DNA from: Phycisphaerae bacterium
GTDB taxonomy: Bacteria > Planctomycetota > Phycisphaerae > UBA1845
NCBI GenBank assembly: GCA_013360585.1
Contig: JABWBH010000024.1
Location: 1 to 58,845, forward strand
DNA: 58,845 bases
Direction: 5' to 3'
Below the pieces are notes generated by a model, which had not been told where the DNA came from, ran no database searches, and worked only from the letters and a program-made list of their open reading frames with translations. Position numbers and translations under genes: made by a program. Below, piece after piece: positions 174 to 21,361 of the stretch (the first letter of the stretch is position 1; each line of letters begins with the position of its first letter).

Positions 174-380
174 CTACCGAGCCTTGAACAGCGCGGCATC
201 CAGGATGGACCACAAATGCACCAGCCAACCCAACCAGATGAACCACATCGCACCGGCCAGCAGAAACATGATGACGGCCATCAACAAGCGGCCTTGGACA
301 AGCTGCCCGAGACCGGGAATGAAAAAGCTGCATATCGCCGCCAACACATTACCTGCCGACCCCTGACCCGTTTGCGCCAT
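174..380 (-). CDS. Small TM2-like membrane protein (68 aa)
   Basis: The protein has a short polar start, then two hydrophobic segments (about residues 12-30 and 31-58). The first contains FIPGLGQLVQGR, the PGLGQ-x-GR signature common in TM2-like small membrane proteins. The start at 380 was chosen because GGAGG lies about 9 bases upstream; the open frame extends further but shows no membrane logic. It is the last clearly supported gene of the minus-strand block that carries the ESCRT-III-like genes, so a link to membrane work is plausible but inferred. Function is unknown. Confidence 0.65.
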   Translation of the reverse strand: MAQTGQGSAGNVLAAICSFFIPGLGQLVQGRLLMAVIMFLLAGAMWFIWLGWLVHLWSILDAALFKAR

Positions 381-514: not shown

Positions 515-1126
515 TCACTCCCGTTTCTTCTCCCCTTCCTGCTTCAGCGCCGCCAGCTCCGCCCGCAGACCGCTAAGACGCGCGAGTTCCTGATGGTGCT
601 CCGCCTCCGCTTCCGCGTCGATCAGGCGGTCCAGCTCCGCGTCGGTGATCACCTCGCCGGCGGCGGACAGCTCCACATCCTGGCTGGCCACGTCCTCCAC
701 CGTGTCGAGGAACATGTTCATCCGCTCCTCCATCGACTGCGACTGGACCATCGCCTTCTCCCAGTCCGCCTGGGTCTTCAGCAGATCCGTCTCGCCGAAG
801 AGGCGGCCGATCTCTTTCGCCATCAGCGACATGGAGGCGGCGAAGTCCGCGGAGGCCTCGGCCTGCCGCTTGATGAGCAGGGCGTTCTTCACCGACAGAA
901 GCTGGCGTTCGAGGAGTTTGCGGATCGTGGCGGTTTTCTTGAGCGAATTGCGGATGAACTGGTACTGGGCGTGGTCGCCGATCTTGCGGGCGTGGTGGGC
1001 GTTCTTGATGAACTCGTCCTGAAACCGCGCCTGCTCGCGGATCGACTTCTCGATCCGCCGGATGCCCTGGCGGATGCGCATGTCCCGCTCGATGCGACGC
1101 TCTTCGGATGATTTGAACAAACCCAT
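515..1126 (-). CDS. ESCRT-III/Snf7-like helical protein A (203 aa)
   Basis: The protein is almost wholly charged alpha helix. It starts MGLFKSSEERR, resembling the short MGLFG-type N-terminus of eukaryotic CHMP proteins. A basic helical hairpin covers about residues 13-85, with the pattern RIEKSIREQARFQDEF then NSLKKTATIRKLLERQL. A hydrophobic helix follows (93-115, FAASMSLMAKEIGRLF), then helices rich in M and E (125-150). A late acidic segment, ITDAELDRLIDAEAEAE (about 160-176), sits where CHMP proteins carry their last helix. Length and basic-to-acidic polarity fit ESCRT-III subunits. The known bacterial members are PspA and Vipp1; this protein looks more like the CHMP side, which is my inference. 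The start was placed at the ATG at 1126. A generic coiled coil is the main alternative. Confidence 0.6.
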   Translation of the reverse strand: MGLFKSSEERRIERDMRIRQGIRRIEKSIREQARFQDEFIKNAHHARKIGDHAQYQFIRNSLKKTATIRKLLERQLLSVKNALLIKRQAEASADFAASMSLMAKEIGRLFGETDLLKTQADWEKAMVQSQSMEERMNMFLDTVEDVASQDVELSAAGEVITDAELDRLIDAEAEAEHHQELARLSGLRAELAALKQEGEKKRE

Positions 1127-1470: not shown

Positions 1471-1671
1471 TCAATAATACTCCCGTTCCGGTATCACCAC
1501 CCACAGAATCAGGTAGATCAGGACCGGCGACCCGAACCCCACGACCGCCGCGATGGCGAACAACACCCGCAGCACCGTCGCGTCAATGCCGAAGTATTCC
1601 CCCAGTCCGCCGCACACGCCGGCGAGGTAGCGGTTATGCACGCTGCGTCGCAGTGTTGAAGATCGGCTCAT
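1471..1671 (-). CDS. pspC: PspC domain membrane protein (66 aa)
   Basis: This is a compact PspC domain: a basic N-terminus (SRSSTLRRS), the family core YLAGVCGGLGEYFGID, then a long hydrophobic stretch (about residues 31-60) ending VVIPER. PspC proteins are inner-membrane partners in the phage-shock envelope-stress response, where the effector PspA is itself a bacterial ESCRT-III homolog. That makes its position between two ESCRT-III-like genes notable. The start could be 1674 or 1671; 1671 gives better spacing from a GAAGAA site. Almost the whole length is domain, with no extra cytoplasmic module. Confidence 0.85.
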   Translation of the reverse strand: MSRSSTLRRSVHNRYLAGVCGGLGEYFGIDATVLRVLFAIAAVVGFGSPVLIYLILWVVIPEREYY

Positions 1672-1802
1672 CATTTCTTCGCGATCATACAGAAAAACAC
1701 GCACATTCTCTTCAGCGTCCAGGATGGACAGAATTTGCAAAATGACCAGGGTCAGATTCCGATCCTGTCGATCCTGTCCCTGCTGTGACAATCTGCATGA
1801 GT

Positions 1803-2405
1803 TCACTCCGCCGCCTGCTGCCGCTCCCGCACCCGGCGATCGGCTTCATCGAAGCCTTCGTTCGCGTCGGCGATCTCGCCGCGGTCGAGCTTCTCCCAGA
1901 TGTCCATCACGGCGCGGCCCGCTTCGTTGTTCGTCGCCGCATGCTCGTCGGCTTCGCGGCCGAGCGCCAGAACCTCATCCAGCCGCTCCTGGTACATCTC
2001 GACCTTCACCGAGTCCGCCTCGATGAGCTTGCCGAGGCGCATCATGTCCTTCGCGCTGATGAGGCCCAGCTTGCCGCCGCCCTTCATGCGGTCGGCGTTC
2101 TCGCGGAGCATCCGCAGGCGCGAGACGGTGAGCAGCTCCTTCGTGCGGATGTTGAGCTGCCGCTGGAGCATGAGCTGCTCGGTGGTGCGCAGCTCGAACT
2201 CCTGCGCGAGCATCTGCCGCGCCTCCGGCGTCTTCTCCTTCGCCCCGCGCTCGAACAACCCCTGTTTATCCTTGGCGAGCTTGAGTACCTTGTCGAGCAT
2301 CTGCTTGCGGTCTTTTTCGAGCAACAGCTCCTGCCGCCGAAGCTCCGAGCGCGACATCTCGGAGACGGACTTCTTGCGCTTGATGAGGTAATCGAAGAAG
2401 GTCAT
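1803..2405 (-). CDS. ESCRT-III-like helical protein B (200 aa)
   Basis: The whole chain is helical and highly charged. After a short start (MTFFDYLIKRKKSVSEM) a long helical hairpin runs from about residue 20 to 100, with ELRRQELLLEKDRKQ on the first arm and LAQEFELRTTEQLMLQRQLN on the second. The turn contains GAKEKTPEAR, where ESCRT-III proteins have a small-residue linker. Shorter helices follow, and VMDIWEKLDRGE (about 166-177) resembles the late helix that carries MIM motifs in ESCRT-III. It is a paralogue in architecture but clearly divergent from protein A. The assignment rests on pattern, not on alignment; an unrelated coiled coil cannot be excluded. Confidence 0.55.
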   Translation of the reverse strand: MTFFDYLIKRKKSVSEMSRSELRRQELLLEKDRKQMLDKVLKLAKDKQGLFERGAKEKTPEARQMLAQEFELRTTEQLMLQRQLNIRTKELLTVSRLRMLRENADRMKGGGKLGLISAKDMMRLGKLIEADSVKVEMYQERLDEVLALGREADEHAATNNEAGRAVMDIWEKLDRGEIADANEGFDEADRRVRERQQAAE

Positions 2406-2507: not shown

Positions 2508-3113
2508 TCATTGCTGTCTTATCCCGGCAAGCTCCTCTGTCACATTGCGGTGCCTACTGTGCTGGTCGATGAACCTGCCAAGAATGCCCCCATCCGCCCC
2601 CTCGAAACGGGCCCAACCCCCAGTACTCGACCCTACTGACCCGACACCGCCCAATCCATCAAACGTGGCGTCGAATACTCTAATGTGACCTCTGTCATCT
2701 GCATGTTCTGATCGGGGGACGAAGAAGTACCGATTGCCGCTAACGCCGATTGCTCCGAGTGGCCCTTCAAACTCTACTCCGCTTGACGTTATGTTGATGT
2801 CAACGCCGTTTCTATTCCCATTCCGAAACCCGAGAGCGACCCTCTCTCGATGCTCAATCACAAAACGGAGCGCACGAGACGAGACGAGGAGGCGCGTCTT
2901 TTCAAGGCATGCTGCGTTTTCAGTTGCGAAAGCGTCCGAATCGTTGATCTGAATTTGATTCAGCTCTACATGGCAATCATGGCATATAAAGACGACCTGA
3001 TTCCGATGGGAGTTCCTGCCCTCCGTATGATGTTCCGTTAACTGATTCTCAAGACTTGGGGTGCAAAGGCAACGTACGCAGAAACCGAAACGTCGCGCGT
3101 CAGCTCTTGTCAT
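2508..3113 (-). CDS. HNH-like zinc protein of unknown role (201 aa)
   Basis: The N-terminus has paired cysteines (CVRCLC, residues 12-17), a histidine pair in LTEHHTEGRNSHRN (about 26-39) and CHDCHVELN (about 44-52). This is the layout of an HNH endonuclease zinc core. The rest is a glycine-rich, probably beta-stranded region with no recognised domain. The gene is visibly poorer in G+C than its neighbours and sits between two ESCRT-III-like genes, starting 26 bases past the larger one. It may be a later insertion. The start is the ATG at 3113 with AAGG upstream. Nuclease activity is inferred only from the motif. Confidence 0.5.
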   Translation of the reverse strand: MTRADARRFGFCVRCLCTPSLENQLTEHHTEGRNSHRNQVVFICHDCHVELNQIQINDSDAFATENAACLEKTRLLVSSRALRFVIEHRERVALGFRNGNRNGVDINITSSGVEFEGPLGAIGVSGNRYFFVPRSEHADDRGHIRVFDATFDGLGGVGSVGSSTGGWARFEGADGGILGRFIDQHSRHRNVTEELAGIRQQ

Positions 3114-3139: not shown

Positions 3140-4660
3140 TCAGCTTGCCTCCGGGTCGCGCGTTCTCGGCGCTGATTCGGGTCGCATCGGCGGCGGAGGT
3201 TCCGGCGGCGACGCTGCGGCGCTTCGCTGCGGCGTCGCGGGCTCCTTCCGCGGCGCGGCCTGCGGCGTGTTGCCTTGATCCGCAATGCGCTCGCGTGACG
3301 GCGCCGGCGCGGCGGAATCCTTCCGCTCGCCCGCCCGGCTCCCCGCGCGTGACGACGACGCCTCCTGAAACTCCTTGAGGATGTCCGCCTCCTCGTCGCT
3401 CATCACCGATTCGCTCATGCCCGCCGCAAGACTCGACACGAGATCCGCATCGGCCTTGAGCGTCTCGAGCATCTCCTCCGCCGCGACCGCGTGCTCGGTC
3501 AGTTCCTGCGAGTCCGGGAGCTTGGCGATCTGCCCTTGCTGAATGAGCGTGAGGTTGTGAATGTCCGTGCTGATGATGTTGATCTGCTGATTGAGCATGC
3601 CCAGCGACGTGTTGACGCGGAGGATGTCCTTGCGGAGCTGGGCGACCTGCGCGGCAATGCGCCGCTGGGTGAGCGCGGAGTTCGCCGCCCGACCCTGCTC
3701 CATCAATTCGTCCTCTTTCTTTTCCAGCTTGGCGATGTCGTCGTAGAGGCGGTCGCGGCGCTGGGTGAGCGCGGCGCGGCGCTCCGACAGCAGGTTGATC
3801 TTCTGCTTGTCGTCGCCCTCGCGGGAGAACATCTGCCGGATCCGGTCGATCATGCTCACCGAGTTCTTCTCCCCGGGCATCGCCGCTGCGCCCCGATACA
3901 GGAGGAATGTCCCGTCTTTCTTCGCCAACTTCAACTCCGGGTCCGCTTTCACGACTTCCTCCAGCGCGGTCTTCACCACCGCTTCGGGCAGACCGGTGCG
4001 CTCCACCACCTGCTCCAGCGACAGACTGCCGGTCAGCAGGTCGGCGCTCGCCTCCTCGACGACGCGCTTCGCCCGATCCACCTTCTGCCGCGAACCCTCC
4101 GGGTCAAAGATCGCCAGCACGCGGGCATCGACGGCCGCCCCGGGCGAGAAAACCTTCCAGCCGCCGCTCCCGTCCGGTTCGACGAGCACCAGGGTGATAT
4201 TCGGAAAATCCAGCCCGCTATTGTGGACCTCCCGGGTGAACCCCGTCGGACTGCACACGCCGATGACGTGCGGCGTCTTCGCATCCCCCGCGAGTCGCCG
4301 GACGTGGTCCGTCAATTCCGCCAGGCCGATCGGCGGCGCCTCCCCGGCGTTATCGGCCGCGAAATGCTCGAGCGGCGACAGCACGGAGGCGATCGCCACG
4401 CCCGTCGCCCGCCTCCCGAAGATGAACCGCCGCTCGAACCCGCGCAGGACGACCCGGCGGTTGCAGGGCAGGGCCTTCAGCGCTGCGCGGTCCGGCCGAC
4501 CGTGCCGCGCGAGCAGCGCCCGCAGACGGTCCTCCTCGTCGTGCTGCGACGCGCGCCAGAACTTCCCCCGGAACGCCTTCCCCTTGGCGGCCTCGAAGTT
4601 CATCTGAACGCCGGACAGAAACGACGTTTCTCGCTGGAAGGCTTGTTCGGCTCGACTCAT
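3140..4660 (-). CDS. Winged-helix plus ESCRT-III-like protein (506 aa)
   Basis: Three parts are visible. Residues about 65-190 form an alpha/beta domain I do not recognise (VVLRGFERRFIFGRR, HVIGVCSPTGF). Residues about 196-257 read as a winged helix: LSLEQVVERTGLPEAVVKTA followed by a KDGTFLLYRG wing. Residues about 284-435 form an ESCRT-III-like coil: a basic hairpin (LLSERRAALTQRRDRL; TQRRIAAQVAQLRKDILRV), a middle helix and a late acidic helix, DEEADILKEFQEA (422-434), placed like a MIM motif. The tail to 506 is disordered and rich in P, A and S. Eukaryotic CHMP7 has winged helices before an ESCRT-III core, so the order is suggestive. Starts at 4660 or 4603 (MNFEAAK) are possible. Confidence 0.6.
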   Translation of the reverse strand: MSRAEQAFQRETSFLSGVQMNFEAAKGKAFRGKFWRASQHDEEDRLRALLARHGRPDRAALKALPCNRRVVLRGFERRFIFGRRATGVAIASVLSPLEHFAADNAGEAPPIGLAELTDHVRRLAGDAKTPHVIGVCSPTGFTREVHNSGLDFPNITLVLVEPDGSGGWKVFSPGAAVDARVLAIFDPEGSRQKVDRAKRVVEEASADLLTGSLSLEQVVERTGLPEAVVKTALEEVVKADPELKLAKKDGTFLLYRGAAAMPGEKNSVSMIDRIRQMFSREGDDKQKINLLSERRAALTQRRDRLYDDIAKLEKKEDELMEQGRAANSALTQRRIAAQVAQLRKDILRVNTSLGMLNQQINIISTDIHNLTLIQQGQIAKLPDSQELTEHAVAAEEMLETLKADADLVSSLAAGMSESVMSDEEADILKEFQEASSSRAGSRAGERKDSAAPAPSRERIADQGNTPQAAPRKEPATPQRSAAASPPEPPPPMRPESAPRTRDPEAS

Positions 4661-4802
4661 CGCATAAGCACCGTTACGCAAGCGGATCCTGAGTTTCGCC
4701 CATCAAACACGACAGGATCCGAAGCGGCTGCGTTGGTTCTTCGTCATTTGTCATTCGCAATTCGTCGCCCGTCATTCCGCCGCCGGCGTTTCAATTTCCT
4801 CG

Positions 4803-5054
4803 TCAGATTCTCCCCCCGCACTTCGGACAGTACCTCGCCGGGCGAGCGTCCTCGTGCCCGCAGGCGGGGTTTCGGCAGCGGGACAACACCGCGATCCGCG
4901 GGGCGGCCTCGTCGTTGTCGTCCACGTCGAACATCCACATGACCCCGCGGCTCATCGCGCGAAGCGCCTGCGACAGCGCCCAGAAGACGCCGTAAATCAG
5001 CGCTCCCAGCCCCGCCATCACCGCCACCGCCGTCACCAGCAGGTCCGCCGGCAT
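4803..5054 (-). CDS. Membrane-anchored zinc-ribbon protein (83 aa)
   Basis: One hydrophobic segment (about residues 3-30, LLVTAVAVMAGLGALIYGVF) is followed by an acidic linker (DVDDNDEAAP) and a C-terminal zinc ribbon, CRNPACGHED with CPKCGG. The ribbon should lie in the cytoplasm if the N-terminus is outside. The start was fixed by a strong GGAGG site about 9 bases before the ATG at 5054. It lies between the winged-helix/ESCRT-III-like gene and the kinase, whose own tail has two similar ribbons, so the two may share a partner (inference). Confidence 0.75.
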   Translation of the reverse strand: MPADLLVTAVAVMAGLGALIYGVFWALSQALRAMSRGVMWMFDVDDNDEAAPRIAVLSRCRNPACGHEDARPARYCPKCGGRI

Positions 5055-5238: not shown

Positions 5239-6288
5239 TCATACCACCAGGCGCAGCTTCGTTCCGCAGAAGATGCAGTAGCGATCCGAGACCTGCACGT
5301 ACCCGCCGCACTCCCCGCACCGCGGAACCACGGCGGCAAGCTGCACCCCGCAATGAATGCAATATTGATCGCCCGCCCGGACCGCGCGAGCACAGCGCGG
5401 ACAGGCCCTCTCCCCACCCGCACCGCCGAGTTCGTGCCGATCGGCCGGACCGGTGACGCTGACGGTTTCCGGTCGGACCGCGGACACCGCCTCCAACATC
5501 TGCTCGGCGGAGGCGTAGCGCCGGTCCAGCCGCGTGTACGCCCGGCGGAAGACCTCGTCGAGCGGTTTCGGAACTCCGGGTCGCAGCAGGCTGGGCGTCT
5601 CCGTCCCCTGCGGGCGCTCGCCGGTAAGCATCTCGAAAAGGAGGATGCCGCAGGAATACAGGTCGCTGCGGGCGTCCACCGGCTGGTTCTCGCGCTGCTC
5701 GGGCGACATGTAGGCGAGTGTGCCGCTGATGCCGCGGCCGTCCTCGGCGAAGAAGCTCCCGCTTTGCAGCATCGACTCCGTCGCGGCGCTGCCGACGCGA
5801 CCGAGACCGAAGTCCGTCACCTTGACCGCGTTCTCGTCGATCGACGCCAGCCCGTCGAGCGCATGCGCCAGCAGGACGTTCTCCGGCTTCAGATCCCGGT
5901 GAACGACGCCGTGCCCGTGCGCGACGGTGAGCGCCCGCAGCACGCCGCGCAGAATCGTCACCGCGGCGGCGACGGGGAACGACGCGCGATGATGCTCGAT
6001 CGCCCTCCGCAGCGACGCCCCCGGCACGTACTCCATCACCAGGTAGGGTGGGTCCGCATAAGGGTCCAGGTCGATCGCGCGGACGATGTTCGGATGCCGC
6101 AGAGCATGAACGACCACGCCTTCGCGCTGAAGGTGGCGGACGTAGTCCGGCTGCGTCGGAACCTTGATCGCCACCGTTTCGTCAAGCACGTGATGCCGCG
6201 CCCGCCAGACCTCGCCGAACGCCCCGGCGCCGAGGCGCTCCTCGAGGAGGTAGTTGTTGATCCGGGTTCCCTTCTGGAGTGTGAGCAC
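5239..6288 (-). CDS. Ser/Thr protein kinase with two C-terminal zinc ribbons (349 aa)
   Basis: A complete Hanks-type kinase domain fills residues 13-270: a glycine loop GAGAFGEV, Lys42 in VAIK, the catalytic loop HRDLKPEN (130-137), DFG (159-161) and the activation-segment end MSPEQ. Two zinc ribbons follow, with cysteine pairs at 296/299 and 310/313, then 324/327 and 338/341. No membrane segment is present, so it is cytosolic, unlike PASTA-type kinases. It sits among membrane and ESCRT-III-like genes on the same strand and is the obvious candidate regulator of that block, perhaps by phosphorylating its helical proteins (inference). Confidence 0.93.
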   Translation of the reverse strand: MLTLQKGTRINNYLLEERLGAGAFGEVWRARHHVLDETVAIKVPTQPDYVRHLQREGVVVHALRHPNIVRAIDLDPYADPPYLVMEYVPGASLRRAIEHHRASFPVAAAVTILRGVLRALTVAHGHGVVHRDLKPENVLLAHALDGLASIDENAVKVTDFGLGRVGSAATESMLQSGSFFAEDGRGISGTLAYMSPEQRENQPVDARSDLYSCGILLFEMLTGERPQGTETPSLLRPGVPKPLDEVFRRAYTRLDRRYASAEQMLEAVSAVRPETVSVTGPADRHELGGAGGERACPRCARAVRAGDQYCIHCGVQLAAVVPRCGECGGYVQVSDRYCIFCGTKLRLVV

Positions 6289-16162: not shown

Positions 16163-16723
16163 ATGTCAACATTCCGAGGCTTGACGGTCGAACAACCGTC
16201 TGAAAGCGTCGTGCGGGAGCCTGCGTCCGCACCTTTCCTTTTCTGGATGCTCGTGCTGCTGGGCATGAGCGGGCTTGCGCCGGCGGTGCTGCTGCCGGAG
16301 TGGCGGGCGTATCAGCACATCCGCGTCACGGAGCAGCGCGAGCAGTTCGCCCGCGAAAGACTTGCGGACGCGGTGGCGGCGGAGCGGCGACTGCTTGACG
16401 GACTGCGGACCGACCCCGCACTGCTTTCGAGGATTGCGCAGCGTGACCTTCGGACGGCGCCGGCGGATGCGGAGGTCGTTCAGGTGCCGGTGGAAGGGCT
16501 GGCGTCGGCCGGGGCGACTCCGGGCTTCCGGCCTGCTCCGGTGGATCCGCCCGCCTGGGTGCGCCGCTGGACGGATCGACTGCCGGTGCTCAATTACGAC
16601 GCGGTGTTCTGCGAGTCCCCGTCGCGTCCGGTGATCATTGCGATGTCGCTGACGCTGATCTGCGCGGCGCTCGTCCTTTACGGACGGGTCCGCAGCGTTC
16701 CGACCCCAGCGGCAAAGAAATGA
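16163..16723 (+). CDS. Bitopic coiled-coil membrane protein (186 aa)
   Basis: A hydrophobic segment (about 24-44, PFLFWMLVLLGMSGL) is followed by a charged coiled coil (about 50-85, TEQREQFARERLADAVAAERR) and then a second membrane segment near the C-terminus (about 156-176). The first half resembles the layout of FtsB/DivIC-type septum proteins, but the second membrane segment and length do not fit, so I leave the function open. GGGAG precedes the start. It may share a transcript with the exported TldD-like gene that follows. Confidence 0.7.
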   Translation: MSTFRGLTVEQPSESVVREPASAPFLFWMLVLLGMSGLAPAVLLPEWRAYQHIRVTEQREQFARERLADAVAAERRLLDGLRTDPALLSRIAQRDLRTAPADAEVVQVPVEGLASAGATPGFRPAPVDPPAWVRRWTDRLPVLNYDAVFCESPSRPVIIAMSLTLICAALVLYGRVRSVPTPAAKK

Positions 16724-16860
16724 CGCCAGCGGACGCGACGTTTTTCGACGATGCCGGGTTGTCATCGGGTCTGCTTCCCTGCACAATTCCTTCGCGGATC
16801 GGGCAGGCGTCGCCGCGCGCCGCCGGCCCGGCGACCCTGGACGGGTTCCGGTCGGGAGAC

Positions 16861-18687
16861 ATGCCCGCCGCCGGGAAACGTATCATGCAGATCGTTCGCT
16901 TGCCGCGATTTCACCCGCAAACCTGCGCCTTCCGGATTGCGGGAGCCATCCTGACCGCCACGGGAATGCTCGCATCCGCTGCGACCCCGGCGCGAGCGCA
17001 ATCCCAGAAGGCGCCGCCCGGCGACCTGCCCCCACTGATGCGCCTGCTCGAGGCGGAACTCGCGTACTCGATGGAGAATCTCCGCACGCCCGAAGGCACG
17101 CGTCCGTATTACCTCGCGTACACGGTCTACGAGGAGCACACCGGCACGGTCGTATGTACACTCGGAACGCTGGCCGCCCGGACCGACGATCACTCGCGCC
17201 AGCTCAACATCGACCTGCGCGTCGGCGACTACGCCCTTGACAACTCGCACCAGCTCCGAGGCCGTGGGGGCACGGCGCGCGGATACTCGGTGACCACGGC
17301 GCAACTGCCCCTCTCCGATGACGAACCCTCGATCCGCCACCTGCTGTGGCTGAATACCGACGCTGCGTTCAAGCAGGCGGTGCAGGTCTTCCAGCAGGTG
17401 CAGACCAACCTTCAGGTCAAGGTCGAGGAGGAGGACCAGTCCGACGACTTCTCCCGTGAGAAACCGTGGACGCGGCTGGATCCGCCCGCTTCCCCGACAT
17501 TCGACCCCGCGTCGTGGACCGACCGGTTGCGCCGCGTGTCCGCTCTGGCGAAGGAGTACCCGACGGTTTATCAGTCGAGCCTCTCCCTCGGCGCCTACGT
17601 CGGGACGACGACGATCGTGACCAGCGAGGGGACGCGCGTGCAATCCTCGCAAACGAGGTACCGGGTCACGCTTCAGGGCGCGACCAAGGCCGACGACGGA
17701 ATGACGCTGTCGCACAGCGACGACTTCAACGCGGCCGGCCCGTCGCGTCTTCCGGACGAGAAAGCACTCGCGGACGCTTTCCGTCGCGTGCTCGACCAGC
17801 TCGTCGCTTTGCGCGCAGCGCCCCTGGCGCAGCCTTACACGGGACCGGCGATCCTGCGCAACCGGGCGAGCGGCGTGTTCTTTCACGAGATCTTCGGACA
17901 CCGCATCGAAGGCCACCGCCAGCGCGACGTTGCCGAGGGGCAGACGTTCACGAAGAAGGTCGGCAAGCAGATTCTTCCGACATTCCTGAGCGTCATCGAC
18001 GACCCGACCCTGCCGAAGTTCGGCGGCATCGATCTCCGCGGACACTACGTCTTCGATGACGAAGGCGTGCCCGCGTCGCGCGTCACGCTGGTCGAAGGCG
18101 GAATCCTGAAGACATTCCTGATGTCGCGCACGCCCGTCGAAGGCTTCCCCGTCTCCAACGGACACGGACGGCGCGCGCCGGGCAACGCCTGCGTCTCGCG
18201 TCAGGGGAACCTCCTTGTCGAGTCCGCGCAGACCGTCTCCTTCGACGAGCTGCGCCGGCGGCTGATCGAGACCTGTACGCAGCAGGGCAAGCCTTACGGG
18301 CTTCTTTTCGAGGATATTTCCGGCGGTTTCACGTTCACCGGACGCGCCGGTCCGCAGAGCTTCAAGGTGCTTCCCGTCGTCGTTTACCGCGTGTATGCCG
18401 ACGGCAAGCCGGATGAACTGATCCGCGGGGTGGACATCGTCGGAACGCCGCTGTCCTGCTTCGAGCGGATTCTGGCGACGGGCGACGATCCGGCCGTGTT
18501 CAACGGGACGTGCGGGGCGGAAAGCGGCTGGGTTCCCGTCTCCGCGATTTCACCGAGCATTCTCGTCGAAAACATCGAGATTGAGAAACGTGAGGTGGAT
18601 CAGTCGCGTCCTCCGGTGCTCCCGCCGCCGGGTGCGTCCGTCGCACGCGCGGGAGGAGACCCCGAGAAGGAGGGGATAAAGAAGTGA
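16861..18687 (+). CDS. Exported TldD-family metallopeptidase-like protein
   Basis: The metal-binding motif [11 protein letters not shown] (from His342, HExxxH) is intact, followed by [14 protein letters not shown] and the TldD-type end ([22 protein letters not shown]). TldD with TldE forms a cytosolic protease that degrades unfolded peptides in other bacteria. This one instead carries a clear signal peptide (after MQIVRLPRF, ending ATPARAQ), so it should act outside the cytoplasm. About 200 extra residues precede the catalytic domain. The start may be 16861 (GGGAG close by) or 16885. It leads a run with a pseudopilin and a motif-less partner. Confidence 0.88.
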
Positions 18688-19666: not shown

Positions 19667-21361
19667 ATGTTGCACAGACGGGAAATGATACCCCTGATGT
19701 TTCTGATCGCCGGTGTCGTCGCGCTCCCGGGCGCCGGGGCGACGGCGCAGGACGGATCCCCCGGTTCGGGAAACGTCTCCGACGACGTCGTGCTGCGCGC
19801 GATGATCGCCGAACTGGATCGCTCGATGAAGGAGCTGGTGCTCGGCGGGCTGGAGCGGCCTTACTTCATCCAGTATGTCGTCGAGGACACCGTCGCGCAT
19901 AACGCCTCGGCGAAGTTCGGCGGCGTCCTGTCCTCGGGCCGGACGCACCGGCGTACGCTGAACACGGATGTCCGCGTCGGATCCTACGAACTGGACGACG
20001 GCAACCTCGGGTTCGGCGGGTTCTCCGGCGGGGTGCTGCCGCTGGACGATGACGAGCAGGCGATCCGCCACGCGATCTGGCTGGCGACGGACGCGGATTA
20101 CAAGGTCTCCGTCGAACTTCTCACGCGAAAGCGCGCGGCGCTGAAGGAGATGAACGTCGAGGATCGGCCGAACGACTTCTCGCCCGCGCCCCCGGTGCAG
20201 GTGCTTGATCCGCGCGTGACGCTCGAGGTCGATGGCGCCGCCTGGACGGAGAACATCCGCCGCCTCAGCGCCCGTTTCCTCGATCACCCGCACGTGGACG
20301 ACGCCCAGGTCACCTTCTTCGCCGGACATACGAACCGCACGCTGGTCAACTCCGAGGGCACGCGCTACCGCCACGGCGACACCGGCATCTTCGTCAACGT
20401 CAGCGCTTCCGCCCGCGCCGCCGACGGGATGGACCTCGCCGCCGAGCGCATGTACATCGCCGAAGCTTTCGACCAGCTTCCCTCGCTCGAGACGATGCTT
20501 GCCGACCTCGACGCCCTCGCCGCCGACCTCAAGGACCGCGCCGCCGCCGGAACCCTCGAGCACTACGTCGGGCCCGTGCTCTTCGACGCCGAGGCCGCCG
20601 GCGTCGTCCTCAACGACTTGCTCGCCGACGCACTGGCCGCGAAACCCGTCATCCTCGGATCTCGTTCCGCACAGGATGACACGATGGAAAAGAAGATCGG
20701 GCTGCGGATCCTCCCTCGATTCCTCAGCATCGTGGATGATCCGAACGAGCACTTCTTCGAGGGAACCCTTCTCGCCGGGCACGGCGCCTACGACGACGAG
20801 GCCGTCCGGGCCCAGCGCGTCAGCCTCGTCGAGAACGGCATCCTCAAGACCCTCGTCACCTGCCGCACACCGTCACGCAAATTCAAAGAGTCCAACGGGC
20901 ACGGGCAGGGGCGCTTCGGAACCGTCAACGCCCACGTCGCCAACCTCTTCGTCGAAACCTCAGAGGGACTTACGCAGGAGGAACTCGAAGCCGAACTTCT
21001 TCAGGCCGCCCGCGACGAGGGGCTTGAGTTCGCTCTGCACGTCCGGGCGATCGAGTCCGGTGGCGGGGGGGCGCTCGGCGATCCGCTGCGTGTGGACAAG
21101 GTGTACGTCGCCGACGGTCGGCGCGAGCGCATCCGCGGCGTCGAATTTACCACCGTCGATATCGCGAAGCTCAAGGACATCCTCGCCGCGGGAACGCAAC
21201 GCAAGGTGTATAATGATCTGGGGTTCGGGGCGGGCACGTGCAGCGTCGTTTGTCCGGCGCTGCTCTTCGAGGAGCTGGAGCTGACGCGCGTGGAGCCGCA
21301 GTTCGATCGCCTGCCGATCCTCAAACCGCCGTCGCTGCGGACGGCGAAGACCGTGCCGTGA
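19667..21361 (+). CDS. Exported TldD/TldE-like protein lacking the HExxxH motif (564 aa)
   Basis: It is collinear with the TldD-like protein two genes upstream: a signal peptide (ending GATAQ), SIVDDPNEHFFEGTL, LKTLVTCRTPSRKFKESNGHG and a matching C-terminus. At the place of HEIFGH it reads VVLNDLLADALAAK, with no metal ligands. In the known TldD/TldE pair only TldD has the motif, so this is probably the TldE-like partner of an exported pair. Its stop overlaps the larE start by one base (TGATG), so the two genes are coupled. Confidence 0.85.
   Translation: MLHRREMIPLMFLIAGVVALPGAGATAQDGSPGSGNVSDDVVLRAMIAELDRSMKELVLGGLERPYFIQYVVEDTVAHNASAKFGGVLSSGRTHRRTLNTDVRVGSYELDDGNLGFGGFSGGVLPLDDDEQAIRHAIWLATDADYKVSVELLTRKRAALKEMNVEDRPNDFSPAPPVQVLDPRVTLEVDGAAWTENIRRLSARFLDHPHVDDAQVTFFAGHTNRTLVNSEGTRYRHGDTGIFVNVSASARAADGMDLAAERMYIAEAFDQLPSLETMLADLDALAADLKDRAAAGTLEHYVGPVLFDAEAAGVVLNDLLADALAAKPVILGSRSAQDDTMEKKIGLRILPRFLSIVDDPNEHFFEGTLLAGHGAYDDEAVRAQRVSLVENGILKTLVTCRTPSRKFKESNGHGQGRFGTVNAHVANLFVETSEGLTQEELEAELLQAARDEGLEFALHVRAIESGGGGALGDPLRVDKVYVADGRRERIRGVEFTTVDIAKLKDILAAGTQRKVYNDLGFGAGTCSVVCPALLFEELELTRVEPQFDRLPILKPPSLRTAKTVP

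Follow-up and report, generated by a model that had tools for sequence, protein, structure and literature searches.

A winged helix fused to an ESCRT-III-like coil in a planctomycete gene cluster: a probable membrane adaptor with a convergent CHMP7-like domain order

The P1 gene cluster

The stretch of DNA analysed here (the window, 58,845 nucleotides of a Phycisphaerae contig) carries a minus-strand cluster in the order kinase, membrane/zinc-ribbon protein, P1, inserted gene, P3, PspC and P2. Its features, including the parts of P1 discussed below, are as follows.

5239..6288 (-): Ser/Thr protein kinase ending in a double zinc ribbon; the conserved cluster begins with this gene
4803..5054 (-): small protein with a membrane segment and a zinc-ribbon-like part, found in part of the relatives
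3140..4660 (-): P1, a fusion of alpha/beta domain, winged helix and ESCRT-III-like coil, 505 aa, ATG start
4103..4654 (-): N-terminal helix and alpha/beta domain of P1, residues 3-186 (about 30-186 for the alpha/beta part), from AlphaFold2
3890..4093 (-): winged helix of P1, residues 190-257, from AlphaFold2 and structure matches
3824..3859 (-): amphipathic helix at the junction in P1, residues 268-279 (about 270-278 in the model), SMIDRIRQMF
3332..3811 (-): ESCRT-III-like core of P1, hairpin of helices 284-325 and 329-378, then helices 385-418 and 420-443
3143..3331 (-): disordered, proline-rich C-terminal tail of P1, pLDDT about 50 or below
1803..2405 (-): P3 (cc2), another ESCRT-III-like coil protein, homologous to the P1 coil by profile comparison
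1471..1674 (-): PspC-domain membrane protein (PF04024, 1.5e-22)
515..1126 (-): P2, Snf7-family-like protein (MGLFKS...), with a family match to Pfam Snf7

The open reading frame of P1 spans 3140-4681 (-) when read from a TTG codon, or 3140-4660 from the ATG at which its homologues begin. P1 was found encoded in 52 of 60 related genomes with E-values down to 0, and it is thus a real gene and no chance reading frame; the initial annotation of this DNA, made from the sequence alone, had proposed looking for the same domain order in other planctomycete genomes. Among the relatives within the order, the arrangement kinase, (zinc ribbon), P1, P3, (PspC), P2 was conserved. An AAA ATPase gene followed P2 directly in 31 of the 42 loci of the order, some of the remaining loci reaching a contig end, and in these 31 loci a snf7-type gene adjoins a vps4-type gene as in the archaeal-type ESCRT core. 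In the window, a short hydrophobic protein (174-380, minus strand) lies after P2 at the contig end, the place occupied by the ATPase in most relatives. Between P1 and P3, the window encodes a 201-aa protein (2508-3113, minus strand) with HNH-like cysteine/histidine motifs seen by eye; this gene looks like a recent insertion, since the gap between P1 and P3 in the close relative L031 measures only about 175 bases.

Searches for anti-phage defence systems yielded generic kinase and AAA matches and nothing of note for the coils, so a defence role was set aside. A phage origin was also rejected, as no PHROG match was obtained.

N-terminal domain and winged helix of P1

Single-sequence searches of P1 against Pfam, NCBIfam and the PDB returned coiled-coil noise only. 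Structure predictions covered P1 and its alpha/beta domain alone. The AlphaFold2 model of P1, built on 53 aligned homologues, reached a mean pLDDT of 85.8, with values mostly above 90 up to residue 380. The initial annotation had described an unrecognised alpha/beta domain, a winged-helix-like segment at about 196-257 and an ESCRT-III-like core at 284-435. All three parts were recovered: the alpha/beta domain is real and was predicted alone with a pLDDT of 93, the middle segment folded confidently as a winged helix at 190-256, and the helices of the core extended over 284-443. Foldseek gave no match at E<=0.001 for the whole P1 model. Of the separate searches that the annotation had suggested for the three parts, the one with the alpha/beta domain alone likewise found nothing at E<=0.001, whereas the winged helix and the coil were both matched in structure comparison.

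Structure comparison of the alpha/beta domain pointed to RPB5 (Z up to 6.9), MspJI (5.7), EndoMS (5.1) and EcoRI (4.2), all below 8. Several of these structures, including the RPB5 jaw, have a restriction-endonuclease-like fold, and the predicted domain weakly resembles folds of this kind. Conserved columns of the domain were E11, P65, A91, G140, L159, W168 and F185; the catalytic D and E-x-K of PD-(D/E)xK nucleases were not conserved in the alignment. A Mrr-like nuclease domain, first suspected from the sequence, was dropped: the fold is compatible with it, but the Z-scores stay below 8 and the active site is not conserved. Tentatively, the domain may be read as a nuclease-like scaffold without activity.

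The winged helix consists of helices 190-203 and 205-210, strand 212-214, helices 215-222 and 226-239, and strands 243-248 and 251-256, and in structure comparison dozens of known winged-helix structures matched it with Z of 7-9. Its recognition helix is net negative (mean charge -1.15 over the 53 homologues), an argument against DNA binding. When the P1 profile was compared with the PDB by sequence, no ESCRT-II or CHMP chain was recovered, at a divergence too great to exclude kinship with VPS25 or CHMP7.

The coil of P1 and its relatives P3 and P2

In the AlphaFold2 model, the P1 coil displays an ESCRT-III-type topology with a long helical hairpin followed by further helices. The top structural match was CHMP2A-CHMP3 (Z 8.7, 98 residues, rmsd 2.4), followed by Vipp1 (Z 8.1), CdvB2 (Z 7.9, over 284-428) and Asgard ESCRT-IIIB (7.8). 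Helices of LSD1 and BBK01, which are unrelated hairpins, also matched, at Z 8.1-8.2. The fold match thus supports an ESCRT-III reading of the coil but is not decisive, because Z 8-9 falls within the background of helical hairpins. Neither the P1 coil nor its homologues matched the Pfam families Snf7 and PspA.

Family profiles were compared by hhalign, with 60 block-shuffled controls per comparison. The P1-coil family and the P3 family aligned with a score of 53.6 (maximum of the controls 34.7), and the P3 and P2 families with a score of 38.8 (maximum of the controls 29.0); in both comparisons none of the 60 shuffles reached the score. Direct comparison of the P1-coil and P2 families was not significant, as 12 of 60 shuffles reached the score. 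The last link leads from P2 to Snf7. Pfam Snf7 (PF03357) was matched by 17 of 25 members of the P2 family at E<=1, with a best E-value of 2.6e-6, while the window's own P2 gave no match to this family. One P2 homologue (L112) matched Snf7 over its full length (17-176, E 3.7e-4, below the cut-off). PspA_IM30 was absent among the Pfam matches listed for the P2 family, and the best PDB sequences for the P2 profile were SNF7 and CHMP3, with marginal E-values of 0.025-0.1. Judged by these profiles, the P1 coil is a predicted member of the ESCRT-III superfamily that joins it via P3 and P2, not on a match of its own; the core claimed by the initial annotation is thereby backed by a chain from the P1 coil through P3 and P2 to Snf7. 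A search of the tails of the coil proteins for the canonical MIM1 motif found none.

Split genes and the origin of the fusion

Other lineages of the phylum have a gene that encodes just the alpha/beta domain and the winged helix, with the coil encoded by an adjacent gene of its own. An iterative profile search started from the P1 coil recovered this adjacent gene in 18 of the 20 split loci. Four of these coil genes were found at once with E-values of 1e-11 or better. P3-type coils entered the profile in later rounds, and as most of the remote separate coil genes came up only from then on, their assignment leans on gene position as well. In the alignment, the junction amphipathic helix of P1 falls where the separate coil gene of other lineages begins. 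After these two genes, the split clusters contain one or two coils of the P3 type, an ATPase with a MIT-like N-terminus and P2, in many cases also a second ATPase. Several of them (L120:1745-2344, L121:3764-4345, L118:2544-3137) encode a small lipoprotein-like coiled-coil protein between the P3-type and P2-type genes. In one split lineage, a SPFH-like membrane protein, recognised by eye, is encoded directly upstream of the winged-helix gene (L115:5970-7067, minus strand).

The best explanation of P1 is a gene fusion, restricted to one order, that joined a winged-helix gene to one for an ESCRT-III-like coil. Since the two genes are separate and adjacent outside this order, the fusion arose within the planctomycetes and its CHMP7-like order is convergent. 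The initial annotation had seen in such a protein a possible witness to the origin of ESCRT adaptors. The order itself, a winged helix in front of an ESCRT-III-like coil, stands, while the kinship does not: P1 has one winged helix and an additional alpha/beta domain, its genes are split in other lineages, and a convergent fusion keeps no record of the descent of the eukaryotic adaptors.

P2 accompanies the N-terminal part of P1. In a set of 199 genomes of the phylum, all 35 genomes with the N-terminal part encoded P2, compared with 5 of the 164 others, a contrast that is inflated by shared ancestry.

Vps4-type ATPases

In the genus of the window, the ATPase gene lies outside the operon, and the own genome encodes the enzyme on another contig (C48). 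This protein combines an AAA domain with a Vps4_C domain detected at 27.5 bits (cut-off 21.3). Vps4_C was found in 42 of 60 relatives; among 14 control genomes, it occurred in two archaea only. The N-terminus of the first ATPase of other lineages had the MIT domains of VPS4B and SKD1 as best PDB matches, over the full length and at marginal E-values of 0.013-0.017, whereas the N-terminus of the window-type ATPase matched TPR and looks TPR-like rather than clearly MIT. With a Snf7-family neighbour and a Vps4_C ATPase, the ESCRT context of P1 is stronger than could be seen when it was first annotated. The gene that follows the unlinked Vps4_C ATPase (L127:1252-3724, the own contig C48) matched SPFH/Band_7 weakly (E 0.0036); proteins of the SPFH type are known as partners in PspA-type systems.

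Proposed function and alternative readings

We consider it likely that planctomycetes have an ESCRT-like system for membrane remodelling, in which P1 is the adaptor or nucleator subunit, with a domain order that resembles CHMP7 by convergence. This reading draws chiefly on gene context; the fold match alone is not decisive. The most likely role of P1 would be that of a membrane adaptor and nucleator for ESCRT-III-like filaments. In such a system, the amphipathic helix and the alpha/beta-winged-helix part would bring P1 to the inner membrane or to a partner, where its coil would seed co-polymers with P3 and P2. The ATPase might then extract subunits, leading to constriction, scission or a reset and recycling of the filament, and the kinase, the zinc ribbon and PspC could act as regulators or as sensors of the membrane state. 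Envelope repair, vesicle budding or division are conceivable as the cellular task.

An alternative would be a phage-shock-like module for envelope stress, in which the coils form a passive, PspA-like scaffold, PspC serves as the sensor and no ATP-driven scission takes place. PspA and Vipp1, the bacterial relatives of ESCRT-III, stabilise membranes (PMC11237479, PMC7615534). The operon contains a PspC gene, and classical PspA (PF04012) is absent from the own genome. However, the cluster has three different coils instead of a single one and a Vps4_C ATPase conserved after P2, and P2 itself matches Snf7, with PspA_IM30 absent among the matches listed. PspA is also not depleted alongside the cluster: it occurs in 17 of 40 genomes with P2 and in 35 of 159 without. 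A replacement of PspA by the cluster was therefore rejected, and we regard the stress module as a serious but unlikely alternative.

The cluster might also constitute an ESCRT-based division machine similar to archaeal Cdv that replaces FtsZ in this order, a proposal that we judge rather unlikely. Its appeal lies in the absence of FtsZ from the own genome and from 59 of 60 relatives, in the fission of Phycisphaerae, which resembles binary fission yet proceeds without FtsZ by a driver that is not known (PMC6952346), and in the precedent of the Sulfolobales, which employ ESCRT-III and Vps4. FtsZ is, however, missing from 195 of the 199 phylum genomes, and 155 FtsZ-less genomes have no P2, so that loss of FtsZ does not require the cluster; the other sampled orders of the same class lack both P1 and P2. 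The counts across the phylum thus lend no support to the view that the cluster is explained by a replacement of FtsZ. A role in cell division is possible, but since FtsZ is missing phylum-wide it is not implied by the absence of this protein.

It is improbable that P1 is a signalling or transcription protein unrelated to ESCRT, that is, a winged-helix DNA binder controlled by the kinase and dimerising through its coil. Most winged helices do bind DNA, coiled coils are common, the operon includes a Ser/Thr kinase and the alpha/beta domain is weakly nuclease-fold-like. A DNA-binding regulator is nonetheless disfavoured because the recognition helix is net negative, and this reading would leave aside the strict co-occurrence with P2, the Vps4_C ATPase in the operon and the controlled profile comparison that ties the coil family to the Snf7-like P2. 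Common ancestry with CHMP7, or transfer from archaea or eukaryotes, is disfavoured and appears very improbable: the domain order is identical, the neighbour is of the Snf7 and not the PspA type and the ATPase has a Vps4-type C-terminus, but P1 carries a single winged helix instead of two and an alpha/beta domain not found in CHMP7, its genes are split in the rest of the phylum, and sequence comparison of its profile with the PDB brings up neither ESCRT-II nor CHMP chains.

Comparison with known systems

Returning to the ESCRT-like adaptor, a close parallel in layout is CHMP7/Chm7. CHMP7 possesses tandem, ESCRT-II-like winged helices resembling VPS25 that bind membranes and recruit ESCRT-III (PMC5069351). 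P1 likewise has a winged helix before an ESCRT-III-type core in one chain and a probable adaptor role, but unlike CHMP7 it has only one, located behind an unrelated alpha/beta domain, and its fusion arose inside the planctomycetes. The resemblance to CHMP7 thus concerns the layout, and perhaps the role, but not the ancestry.

In its split form, in which a winged-helix gene lies beside genes for ESCRT-III-like proteins and Vps4-like ATPases, the system resembles the Asgard layout more than it does CHMP7. According to Ravi et al. (PMC11237479), the archaeal core comprises Snf7 and a Vps4 ATPase, to which the ESCRT-II winged helix was added in Asgard archaea. Like the Asgard ESCRT-II/III/Vps4 system (PMC11237479, PMC10936438), the planctomycete cluster places a winged-helix gene beside several genes of the ESCRT-III type and ATPase genes, the encoded enzymes having Vps4_C or, by marginal matches, MIT-like parts, and kinases and zinc ribbons are also listed for archaeal ESCRT loci (PMC10936438). 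It differs in being bacterial and very divergent in sequence, in having two ATPases per cluster in many lineages and in the lack of a MIM1 motif in the coil tails searched. Regarding the alpha/beta-winged-helix protein itself, we know of no archaeal counterpart.

Compared with the bacterial PspA/Vipp1 phage-shock systems, the cluster has in common a coil of the ESCRT-III superfamily and, in part of the operons, PspC; it departs from them in its Snf7-type match, in the absence of PspA from the own genome and in the combination of three coils with a Vps4_C ATPase and a winged-helix adaptor. Snf7-clade or Vps4-like genes, sometimes with AAA ATPases, have been reported from bacteria (PMC11237479), but there the bacterial Vps4-like genes are reported to have snf7 displaced by another gene, and the text of that study mentions neither planctomycetes nor a winged-helix partner or fusion. 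A review describes bacteria as lacking a clear Vps4 homologue and as usually having one PspA-type ESCRT-III protein (PMC7615534), and many ESCRT components are stated to have no identifiable bacterial homologues (PMC10936438). In the open-access literature, to which our search was confined, we found no description of the planctomycete cluster.

A conserved bacterial operon that combines several coils of the ESCRT-III type, one of them Snf7-like, with a Vps4_C ATPase and a winged-helix adaptor would mean that bacteria, too, have ATPase-driven ESCRT systems with multiple subunits. It would also make an independent CHMP7-like fusion visible, and would give this phylum, in which FtsZ is almost absent, a specific candidate for the remodelling of the envelope and perhaps for division. 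In its widest form, the proposal holds that Planctomycetota possess the full set of parts for an ESCRT-like machine of their own, namely the winged-helix adaptor, three or more subunits of the ESCRT-III type and ATPases with MIT-like and Vps4_C parts, that one order fused the adaptor to an ESCRT-III subunit and so re-created the CHMP7 layout independently, and that the machine may drive FtsZ-less division there. We put this forward tentatively, as a plausible extension to which we would not commit ourselves.

The same operon was also encountered, at 51% identity, on a contig titled Alphaproteobacteria (L057, IP29b_bin.190), which is probably mis-binned Phycisphaerae. On the plus strand of the window, two paralogous secreted proteins recognised by eye as TldD/PmbA-like (16720-18687 and 19667-21361) flank a gene for a prepilin-like protein.
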